DNA of 36,481 nt. Source: Candidatus Cloacimonadota bacterium (GTDB taxonomy: Bacteria; Cloacimonadota; Cloacimonadia; Cloacimonadales; Cloacimonadaceae). Positions 18,167 through 36,314 of the stretch are shown here, piece after piece (positions within the stretch are counted from its first letter, which is position 1; the number at the start of each line of letters is the position of its first letter). The DNA is taken from assembly GCA_029982875.1 (NCBI GenBank), contig JARRCD010000006.1, positions 1 to 36,481 of the forward strand. The letters are read 5' to 3'. The notes under the pieces are model-generated. The model worked only from the letters and a program-made list of their open reading frames with translations, was not told where the DNA came from and did not search any database. The position numbers were made by a program, and so were the translations under genes.

Positions 18167-18320
18167 TTCCCTGACCGTAGGCCAGCACTTCCGCAGAAGC
18201 TAATTTGCTCCATGCCAGAAAGACTATAGCTCAATCAAACTGGATCAAGAATGCTATGCTCCCCTGTCGATAAATCCGACCACCATCTTATCTGCTTAAA
18301 TCTGCATAGCATAGCTTGAG

Positions 18321-18343
18321 CATTACGCCTGTGAGGCGTAATG
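18321..18343. repeat. Perfect inverted repeat, 10-bp arms
   Basis: CATTACGCCT and AGGCGTAATG are separated by GTG. GGCGTAATGGTGG then recurs immediately downstream as an overlapping direct repeat (about 18335..18358). No T-run follows. The function is unknown. Confidence 0.5.
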
Positions 18344-18508
18344 GTGGCGTAATGGTGGAGCAGTGCCAAGCAGATAGCCCCGGTAGGATTACTGAGCATA
18401 GTGGTAAGATACAGGTGGAGAAAGTTACCATAGACCTGATCTATTCCCCATAAGTTATCGCATTAGGTTGACGAAAAAGTGAGCACAACGCCCAAATAAC
18501 TACCCCAA

Positions 18509-19144
18509 GTGCAGAATTGACAAACCTGAGTTCCGTAGGAACAGCATTTTAGATAGCATACCAATTGAATGCCAATACCTTGTGAGTTTCGTAGGAACGG
18601 ATAACGGATAACGCATAACGCATAACCTCTCCTTATCAAAAAATCTGTGAAATCCGTGTAATCTGTAGTGCAGAATGGACAGGCCTGAGTTCCGTAGGAA
18701 CAGCATTTTAGATAGCATGCCAATTGAATGCCAATACCTTGTGAGTTTCGTAGGAACGGATAACGGATAACGCATAACGGATAACCTCTCCTTATAAAAA
18801 AATCTGTGAAATCCGTGTAATCTGTAGTGCAGAATTGACAGGCCTGAGTTCCGTAGGAACAGCATTATAGATAGCATACCAATTGAATGCCAATACCTTG
18901 TGAGTTTCGTAGGAACGGATAACGGATAACGCATAACGGATAACCTCTCCTTATCAAAAAATCTGTGAAATCCGTGTAATCTGTAGTGCAGAATTGACAA
19001 ACCTGAGTTCAGTAGGAACAGCATTTTAGATAGCATGCCAATTGAATGCCAATACCTTGTGAGTTTCGTAGGAACGGATAACGGATAACGCATAACGCAT
19101 AACCTCTCCTTATAAAAAAATCTGTGAAATCCGTGTAATCTGTG
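18509..19144. repeat. Four tandem 159-bp repeats
   Basis: Four consecutive units start at 18509, 18668, 18827 and 18986, each exactly 159 bp and differing at only a handful of positions. Every unit contains GTTCCGTAGGAAC (a 5-bp inverted repeat), a second CGTAGGAAC, and four 7-bp words GGATAAC/GCATAAC (TTATCC/TTATGC on the other strand). Each ends with ATCTGTGAAATCCGTGTAATCTG. Because 159 is divisible by three, a spurious 53-aa repeat frame runs through on the minus strand. The units lie exactly at the strand switch beside dnaN. Confidence 0.95.
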
Positions 19145-19304
19145 TGAGACCTTCGCTATCTTCAATGCCGACCTGCTTTTCTCAAAGAAAACAAGGAAAG
19201 CAGCTTAAGATGGTTGTGCTTTTTGAACAGTCTTTACCGGTGCTACGGGTAGGATATATGCAGATCATCCTTGACAATTATTGCCCTGTGTTTAAAAGGG
19301 AGAA
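19145..19304. other. Leader region of the plus-strand operon
   Basis: This is non-coding. It contains a loose hairpin CTGCTTT...AAAGCAG (19173..19203, 17-nt loop) and TTGACA at 19271..19276, 29 nt before the ATG at 19305. Confidence 0.4.
19271..19299 (+). promoter_or_regulatory. Candidate promoter before the plus-strand operon
   Basis: A perfect TTGACA lies at 19271..19276. TTAAAA or TTTAAA 14-15 nt later is a possible but poorly spaced -10. It would put the transcript start almost on the ATG. It is the only promoter-like motif noticed ahead of the long plus-strand gene set. Confidence 0.22.
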
Positions 19305-33869: not shown

Positions 33870-33946
33870 GTCCCTGTAGCTCAGCTGGATAGAGTGGCAC
33901 CCTCCGAAGGTGAAGGTCAGGCGTTCGAATCGCCTCAGGGACGCCA
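33870..33946 (+). tRNA. tRNA-Arg (anticodon CCG)
   Basis: A 77-nt cloverleaf. The acceptor is GTCCCTG/CAGGGAC with discriminator G and encoded CCA. The D arm is GCTC...GAGT. The anticodon loop CTCCGAA places CCG at 34-36 (reads CGG, Arg). The T arm is AGGCG-TTCGAAT-CGCCT. The outermost anticodon-stem pair appears mismatched (G-A). Confidence 0.93.
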
Positions 33947-33980: not shown

Positions 33981-35747
33981 ATGGCTCACGAAGTAATCCT
34001 CACTGCCGAAAATCTCCATGTCGCCTTTGCTGACCGTGTGATTATCGAAGACGCTTCTTTCGGACTCCATGCCGGAGATAAACTCGGAGTAGTGGGCATC
34101 AATGGCTCTGGCAAATCTACCCTCCTGAAAGTGTTGGGTGGCATTATCAAACCTAATCAAGGTGCCGTAATTACCCGCAATGACATCAGAATCGCTTATC
34201 TGGAACAGGATCCCGATACCGACCCCGCTTGTACGGTTTTTGAGCACGTCTTACCGGCTGATCCCAAAATCCTTAAAGCGGATCATCATTACAAAGCCTT
34301 GCTGACAAAACTGGGCCTTGATCTGTATGATACCCCCTTGGGCATCTTATCCGGAGGTCAGCGCCGCAAGGCAGATTTGGTAAAAGTGCTGGCTTTGGAA
34401 CCTGATCTCATCCTCCTGGATGAACCTACTAACCACCTTGATTTAGATAGCATCGAGTGGTTGCAAGACTATTTGGTAAATACCAAATCAGCCCTGATCT
34501 TTGTAACTCATGACCGCTATTTCCTGGATGCCATTTGCACTCGCATTCTCAATATCGAACGCCAGCACTTGTATTTCTACGAGGGAAATTACAGTGATTT
34601 TTTGAAAGGGAAAATGCTACGCGAGCAGGATAGCCTGCGTAAAGAGACCAGACGGCAGGCGCAATTGTCCAAAGAACTCGCCTGGCTGGCTCGGGGCGCC
34701 AAAGCTCGCGCTTCAAAGCCCAAACATCATGTGGATAGGGTCAAAGAACTGCTCAGCAAGAGCTACCTGATCTCCCATCAGGATTTGGATATTTCTTTTC
34801 AAACAGATAGGTTAGGGAGCACTATTCTTGAGCTTCATAAACTCAGTAAATCCTATCATGGCAATACTCTTTTTGAGGATATAGATCACAATTTTCAACC
34901 CTTAGAACGCATCGGGATTCTGGGACCAAACGGCTGTGGCAAAACTACCCTGCTCAAACTTATTGTGGGAGAAGAAAAGCCCGATCTGGGTAGTATAAAA
35001 GTTGGGGTGAACACCCATTTTTCTTATTACAAACAGGAAGAGGATAGCTTTGATCCCAATCTGAGCGTCTATGACTATATCGCACAATACGCAGAAACCA
35101 TTCGCACTGCTGATGGCACCAAACTTACTGCCACCGAGATGTTGATGCGTTTTCTCTTTGATAAAAAGATGCAACAGATGAAGCTCTCGGCCCTCTCCGG
35201 CGGAGAAAGAAAACGCCTCTATCTGCTCAAATCCCTCATGTTTGGAGCAAATTTCATTATTCTGGATGAACCCACAAACGATCTGGATATTCGCACGCTG
35301 GAAATTCTGGAAGATTACCTCGATGCCTTTAAGGGCTGCCTGCTGATAGTTTCGCACGATCGTTTCTTCCTGGATCGCACGGTAGACTATCTCTTCATCT
35401 TTGAGGGCCATGGCATTCGCAAATTCGCTGGCAACTATTCAGATTATATCCTGGTCAAGCATTACGAGGAAGAAGAAAAGAAAAAGAAACCCGAAATTCA
35501 GATCATGAAACCAAAAAACAGAATCAAGGGACTGAACTATAACGAACAGCGGGAGTTTGCTCTACTGGAAGAAGAGATTGAACAGCTTGAGCAAAAGTTA
35601 TCTGCCTGTGAGGAAAAACTTGGGCATACTGGGCTAAATCCTCAAGCATATCATCTTCTGGCTCAAGAAATGGAAAAGCTCAATCATAGACATGAGGAAG
35701 CTTTGAACAGATGGATAGAGCTCAGCGAAAAAGACAGCTCATATTAG
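33981..35747 (+). CDS. ABC-F family ATPase (Uup-like)
   Basis: This soluble 588-aa protein has two ABC domains and no membrane segments. Domain 1: GINGSGKST, LSGGQRRK, LLDEPTNHLDL. Domain 2: GPNGCGKTT, LSGGERKR, LDEPTNDLDI. A basic linker (about 210-260) lies between, and a charged C-terminal coiled coil (about 515-585) resembles the Uup C-terminal domain. ABC-F proteins act on ribosomes or, for Uup, affect transposon excision and ribosome function. No clear SD precedes ATG. It begins 34 nt after the tRNA and ends the plus-strand gene set. Confidence 0.92.
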   Translation: MAHEVILTAENLHVAFADRVIIEDASFGLHAGDKLGVVGINGSGKSTLLKVLGGIIKPNQGAVITRNDIRIAYLEQDPDTDPACTVFEHVLPADPKILKADHHYKALLTKLGLDLYDTPLGILSGGQRRKADLVKVLALEPDLILLDEPTNHLDLDSIEWLQDYLVNTKSALIFVTHDRYFLDAICTRILNIERQHLYFYEGNYSDFLKGKMLREQDSLRKETRRQAQLSKELAWLARGAKARASKPKHHVDRVKELLSKSYLISHQDLDISFQTDRLGSTILELHKLSKSYHGNTLFEDIDHNFQPLERIGILGPNGCGKTTLLKLIVGEEKPDLGSIKVGVNTHFSYYKQEEDSFDPNLSVYDYIAQYAETIRTADGTKLTATEMLMRFLFDKKMQQMKLSALSGGERKRLYLLKSLMFGANFIILDEPTNDLDIRTLEILEDYLDAFKGCLLIVSHDRFFLDRTVDYLFIFEGHGIRKFAGNYSDYILVKHYEEEEKKKKPEIQIMKPKNRIKGLNYNEQREFALLEEEIEQLEQKLSACEEKLGHTGLNPQAYHLLAQEMEKLNHRHEEALNRWIELSEKDSSY

Positions 35748-36115
35748 AGCAAAGCTGATTGCTCCGGAAGGCAAAGCTAATGTGTTAGACTACATGAGAG
35801 ACTACTCGAAAATAGCTATTCCGATATCATCCCAGAGTATAGTATCCTAACCCATTGATAAATATATAGATGAAGAGCACGGCTATGTAATGATACAGGA
35901 TAACTGCGTCAAAATCTTGACAGCATTCATTATCAAAGGACAATGTACCTGAGTTTGTGAATGCCCATTGGCATGGAGACACAATTAGCACCTTACTCTC
36001 TCATAAACAACAAGATAACAAGATTGTATGGGCTAAATGCTGATAACAGCTTATACACCACTTTTTGAGACTTTACTAATTCCCCCCCCCTTCTGAGCCT
36101 TAATCAGTTCTCAAT
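35748..36115. other. Non-coding stretch downstream of ABC-F gene
   Basis: No intact gene. A weak decayed frame lies at 35752..35952, and a run of nine C lies at 36082..36090. TTAATCA words accumulate toward the palindrome at 36116. Confidence 0.45.
35752..35952 (+). pseudogene. Possible coding remnant
   Basis: One frame reads KLIAPEGKANVLDYMRDYSK..., hits TAA at 35848..35850, and continues in the same frame through DEEHGYVMIQDNCVKIL to TGA at 35950. It has protein-like composition but no start codon or SD and no recognised family. It may be chance. Confidence 0.15.
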
Positions 36116-36160
36116 CCACTCTTAATCAAGTCTTAATAATTAAGACTTGATTAAGAGTGG
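36116..36160. repeat. 45-bp near-perfect palindrome
   Basis: Two perfect 21-bp arms (CCACTCTTAATCAAGTCTTAA and its complement) are separated by TAA. It lies immediately before the right-terminal repeat copy. The match GATTAAG at base 1 of the window suggests the left copy begins within the remains of the same palindrome. No T-run follows, so it is not a standard terminator. Confidence 0.95.
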
Positions 36161-36275
36161 TTAAAGAATAAATTGACAGTCTCAAGAGGGCACGAAAAAG
36201 GGGATAAAATCCGGGATAATTATGGGGAAAAACATGAAAACAAAGATAAAAGCAGGAACTAAGGGCTTCTCCGCC
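36149..36275 (+). repeat. Right-terminal copy of the dispersed repeat
   Basis: It is similar to 1..110 in the same orientation: GATTAAG, TTGACAG (36173..36179), a purine-rich leader, a GGGG SD-like run, then the micro-ORF start. A second patch of similarity lies at 36421..36439 (GGGCTGAGATTCAGAGCT). Confidence 0.5.
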
Positions 36276-36314
36276 AAGCGGGACGGAGCCTTTTATTACT
36301 TCTATATGGAGTAG
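36234..36314 (+). CDS. Micro-ORF, 26 aa, MK-KAG-K-FS family
   Basis: This short ORF, beginning MKTKIKAGTKGFSAKRDGAF, is preceded by GGGGA six bases upstream and TTGACA at 36173..36178. It shares MK...KAG.K.FS with the micro-ORF at 69. GGCTTCTCCGCC and GGGACGGAGCC within it could form an imperfect hairpin followed by TTTTATT, so it might instead be a terminator-like RNA element overlapping a short peptide. The function is unknown. Confidence 0.3.
   Translation: MKTKIKAGTKGFSAKRDGAFYYFYME

Follow-up and report, generated by a model that had tools for sequence, protein, structure and literature searches.

The stretch of DNA analysed here (the window) is the entire 36,481-bp contig C49 of G000, a Cloacimonadota metagenome-assembled genome (MAG) of 135 contigs. 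Its two ends carry related sequences: TTGACAG, a purine-rich leader, a Shine-Dalgarno (SD) sequence and an ATG are common to both, the first 14 codons are identical at 34 of 42 bases, and a repeat finder aligned the ends at 82% identity over 51 nt, 36,165 bp apart. The shared signals and the short open reading frame (ORF) behind them had been described in a sequence-only reading of the window, whose hand count of 34/42 we reproduced exactly. The repeat reaches upstream beyond the TTGACA box into a palindromic array (36096-36180). Elsewhere in the window, a tRNA gene (33870-33943) lies just upstream of an ABC-F-like gene (33981-35747). The features relevant to the repeat and its arrays are the following:

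1-20, + strand: outer end of the array right arm, with TTGACA at 14-19; the remaining array is lost at the contig end
69-197, + strand: left-end micro-ORF, the first ~14 subfamily-1 codons joined, through an internal deletion, to a segment that follows complete copies downstream
18306-18376, no strand assigned: a further array with 11-bp palindromic units, of a type also present upstream of the paralogue G000:C110:2798-3238
36096-36180, no strand assigned: subfamily-1 palindromic array with a unit length of ~11 bp (TTAATCAAG type), the same array being found in at least 7 genera
36173-36178, + strand: TTGACA box at the outer end of the array right arm, a probable -35 element judging from its sequence and its conserved position across genera
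36222-36228, + strand: SD-like GGGG stretch, from the sequence
36234-36314, + strand: 5' remnant of a subfamily-1 gene, truncated and diverged (MKTKIKAGTKGFSAKRDGAFYYFYME, then a stop), a pseudogene fragment judging from homologues and substitutions

Truncated copies of a dispersed unit

Using the right-end copy as a query, we found more copies in the same genome at E values of 1e-34 to 1e-37, far above chance. The window ends are thus not the only two copies, and the sequence-only reading is borne out in so far as the unit is dispersed, has multiple copies and keeps its expression signals; like that reading, we found no described element type for the unit. The copies lie on many other contigs, chiefly at contig ends, and 21 of the 135 contigs end inside the subfamily-1 repeat unit. 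The repeat stands at both ends of the window because the assembly stopped at it, and it explains many of the contig breaks in this fragmented MAG (92% complete), in which complete subfamily-1 copies could not be joined to their flanks.

Other copies in this genome read on beyond the point at which the two window copies diverge, and homologues with the same start run for ~146 codons. The proposal that the unit encodes a very small basic peptide therefore did not hold, the more so as the truncated copies look about neutral: their first 14 codons carry 3 synonymous and 10 non-synonymous changes at 9.3 and 32.7 sites, respectively, with no codon-position bias within these small counts. A deletion running from one TCTCCGGCA repeat to another explains the shape of the left-end micro-ORF. 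The first of these repeats lies in codons 12-14 and the second past the stop codon of the complete copies; the deletion junction falls within TCTCCGGCA at 103-111. Both micro-ORFs are probably truncated and decayed versions of a single member of a family of ~146-aa basic proteins that is undescribed and belongs to Cloacimonadaceae-like bacteria, a judgement that we make jointly with that on the whole two-part-module explanation set out below.

Three copies (L003, L005 and L020) share an identical internal deletion (GATTTCCGTACCCGGGGGGAATTGAG), which suggests that a deleted form was itself multiplied. In addition, a 159-bp unit repeated four times in tandem at 18508-19284 of the window is built from dispersed pieces (GAGTTCCGTAGGAACAGCATTTTAGATAGCAT, ATAACGGATAACGCATAACG and AAATCTGTGAAATCCGTGTAATCTGTG) that recur downstream of subfamily-1 copies on other contigs. 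Nested repeats make the genome a mosaic.

The ~146-aa protein family

Searches of relatives with the extended protein returned full-length open frames of ~146 codons in many genomes. Among close relatives of the protein, those with a name are from Cloacimonadota MAGs and Candidatus Syntrophosphaera. By profile search, the family is present in all 50 of the 50 genomes of the bacterial family f1 and in 9 genomes outside it (59/125 in total), and a single genome can hold as many as 27 copies; G000 itself carries five full-length divergent paralogues in addition to the subfamily-1 fragments. Family genes also occur as tandem pairs (G014:C13:354867-355770, L185; G020:C1:972107-972998, L161). At G014:C13:288455-289645 (L214), a Y1_Tnp gene lies amid CCGTCC/GACGGACT-like repeats just downstream of a family gene, and a second Y1_Tnp neighbourhood of the same kind is located at 556145-557401 in G014.

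Intact orthologues from nine genomes are constrained: median dN divided by median finite dS is ~0.10, dS being saturated in 20 of the 36 orthologue pairs. The members are basic (median pI 9.5), in particular over the N-terminal 45 aa (pI 10). No usable match to the family was obtained in Pfam, NCBIfam or PHROGs, and none in a profile search of PDB sequences; nor did three full-length members have a Pfam match to Y1_Tnp (PF01797). A phage or plasmid origin was considered and rejected, as the family was not found in collections of phages, plasmids and viral contigs. Structure prediction gave a confident model (mean pLDDT 89) made up of a beta hairpin and helices. A fold search with it against PDB and BFVD gave no significant match, including to any known DNA-binding fold, and no domain or fold that would place the family among known transcription factors or nucleoid proteins was recognized.

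Palindromic arrays: build, pairing and dispersal

The right-end array of the window has a perfect 45-bp core (36116-36160) with an axis at ~36138, and is the only palindrome in the window with an arm score of at least 11. In 17 subfamily-1 orthologues from at least 7 genera (two of the 17 loci are without genus assignment), the array axis lies at -86 to -93 from the start codon, and at 86-89 in 16 of the 17. Cross-genus identity among 14 of these orthologues is ~0.25 upstream of the array and 0.5-0.87 inside it. Furthermore, changes present in both arms numbered 46, against a mean of 21 and a maximum of 39 over 1000 swaps of right arms between sequences, which is support, although not proof, for a conserved dyad, as relatedness can inflate the count. 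A weak (A/C)AATG(G)-like hexamer ~17 bp after TTGACA is found in the orthologues and may serve as the -10 element. Six more genomes of the genus carry the subfamily-1 palindrome at sites that lack the gene, and the controls gave zero matches.

Upstream of 43 family genes from other genera, the palindromes differ in sequence but are alike in build. Identity at lag 11 within the left arms is 0.62, compared to 0.27 after shuffling, and neighbouring lags are flat. Inverted-repeat scores of at least 28 were reached upstream at 20/43 loci, in 0/43 shuffles and downstream at 6/39 loci; this survey used simple scoring, with thresholds picked during the work. The highest score among the 43 base-shuffled controls was 24, and an upstream inverted repeat scoring at least 24 accompanies 48 of 78 distinct members, with lower scores in the remaining 30/78, so that an array is not detectable at every family gene; these 78 members are non-independent and subfamily 1 is over-represented among them. 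The arrays lie ~80-340 bp upstream of their family gene. Most order-level relatives outside f1 are without a detectable array. Across 800 kb of two genomes, palindromes were present upstream of 5/12 family genes versus 34/614 other genes (Fisher p 4e-4), and at a stricter threshold upstream of 3/12 versus 17/614 (p 5e-3).

Array similarity follows protein similarity. Similar arrays were found in 80/80 pairs with protein identity of at least 0.7, in 50/83 pairs at 0.5-0.7 and in 3/503 pairs below 0.5; the pairs are non-independent and orthologues share ancestry. Nevertheless, ancestry alone is insufficient to account for the pairing of array and protein, because the surrounding upstream DNA is not conserved. 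At the level of sequence, it is thus well supported that the array is private to each paralogue and tracks protein similarity.

Within a genome, an array type recurs at some 18-37 intergenic sites. In the closed genome G020 (one contig, 2,246,820 bp), one array type occupies 33 sites, one of which is upstream of a family gene, with zero control hits. Periodic chromosomal spacing was not detected for these 33 sites, their distribution showing no difference from uniform (KS p 0.52), and the gap-regularity value of 0.10 is suggestive only. Array A of G014 is present at 18 sites, again with one upstream of a family gene and zero control hits. Within 400 kb of G014, four array types cover about 20 of the 24 palindromes; these ~20 are intergenic and have unrelated flanks, conservation being confined to the array. 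Three of the four types have one copy each adjoining a family gene inside the 400 kb, and the fourth adjoins a family gene on another contig. The dispersed sites in G014 lie in tandem, divergent and convergent gaps between unrelated neighbours of mixed functions, a distribution that does not look like one simple regulon.

Two predictions of the model were borne out in G000. The array-like stretch at 18306-18376 of the window resembles the region upstream of the C110 paralogue; this genome has ~37 sites of this type, and one of them (C110:2660-2716) lies 82 bp upstream of the C110 gene. Dispersal was next predicted for the weaker array upstream of the paralogue on C31 and was found, with >30 matches that involve the array part of the query only. 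A literature search over largely open-access papers returned no Cloacimonadota palindromes of this kind.

Candidate mechanism and alternative explanations

We consider it probable that the family consists of two-part modules, each pairing a gene with an upstream palindromic array that is private to it, consists of 11-bp units and has been copied to intergenic sites, and that the protein binds its cognate array. The co-variation of arrays and proteins, the dyad symmetry and the 11-bp period lend indirect support to such binding. A unit of 11 bp corresponds to one helical turn, and each protein would bind its own array cooperatively, as an oligomer aligned on a single face of the double helix. 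For subfamily 1, this would amount to self-repression, because the right arm of the array holds the probable -35 box. The dispersed copies would serve as further binding sites with a regulatory or architectural role or, alternatively, would be REP-like copies spread with the help of the protein.

Several known systems share parts of this organization. Operators of the OmpR/PhoB type consist of 11-bp direct repeats; the Cloacimonadota arrays similarly have units one helical turn apart and adjoin a promoter, but are long and inverted, and no response-regulator domain was matched in the protein next to them. An ordinary family of autoregulatory transcription factors, with the dispersed arrays as the operators of a regulon, is rather unlikely. 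In its favour, the proteins are basic, and in subfamily 1 the array holds a fixed position relative to the start codon with its right arm overlapping the probable -35 box. However, some sites lie between convergent genes, the functions of neighbouring genes are mixed, and the arrays (40-90 bp) have near-identical cores in unrelated flanks, which suggests copying rather than evolution in situ. The chromosome organizers MatP (acting at matS) and SlmA are single proteins that recognize tens of short palindromic sites across the chromosome, whereas many paralogues are present here, each with a private multi-unit array. ERIC and MITE-type elements are long imperfect palindromes scattered in intergenic DNA, but the palindrome families described here are tied to specific adjacent protein paralogues. 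An 11-bp period in long inverted repeats would fit A-form RNA as well, so that the palindrome might act as a long hairpin or terminator; this we regard as improbable, given that the arm mismatches show no wobble excess (13 GT/TG versus 21 AC/CA), that the subfamily-1 array is upstream of the probable -35 box and therefore outside the transcript starting there, and that the only Rfam match in the window is a tRNA. It is highly improbable that the element makes a functional micropeptide, as the sequence-only reading had it. Although the start, SD sequence and leader of the micro-ORFs are conserved, there are full-length homologues and a deletion junction, and the tails are unrelated between copies; a functional small-peptide gene was rejected on the lack of codon constraint on the short ORF, within the small counts.

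Another parallel is with REP/REPIN sequences and RAYT genes, where several gene paralogues per genome each lie beside their own flavour of intergenically dispersed palindrome (PMC3116915). The Cloacimonadota genes likewise adjoin their own dispersed, extragenic palindrome type, and both the private palindrome per paralogue, dispersed between genes with unrelated flanks, and the copying of the whole gene unit in G000 resemble REPIN/RAYT biology (PMC3116915). The differences are that the 146-aa protein is unrelated to Y1_Tnp, and that the palindromes form longer arrays, of 11-bp period, placed upstream of the gene. In one alternative explanation, the palindromes are non-autonomous selfish elements mobilized by a Y1 (HUH) transposase whose gene lies elsewhere, with the 146-aa gene as a passenger or helper. 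Y1_Tnp genes are present in G008, G014, G020 and G033, and in G014 two of these genes have family genes nearby. We nevertheless find this explanation doubtful. The 146-aa family itself is without a Y1_Tnp match, and no Y1_Tnp gene (0 in a 92%-complete assembly) was found in G000, where the unit is amplified. Moreover, the single Y1_Tnp locus that was read through, at 289301 in G014, is flanked by short repeats of a different type. A REP-like route may operate in those relatives that carry Y1_Tnp.

Returning to the two-part modules, we think there is a somewhat better than even chance that they represent a new class, in which paralogues with a possibly new fold would each recognize a private, 11-bp-phased palindromic array, with protein and array co-diversifying inside a single bacterial family, and with arrays that would have spread over the chromosome, in one genome or more, with no tyrosine transposase present. 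If the pairing of array and protein reflects binding, dozens of naturally diversified protein/DNA-array pairs would be available within a single bacterial family, and a specificity code could be read from sequence. If true, these modules would provide a second, unrelated answer to the question posed by RAYT and REP: why genomes keep private dispersed palindromes beside a dedicated gene.
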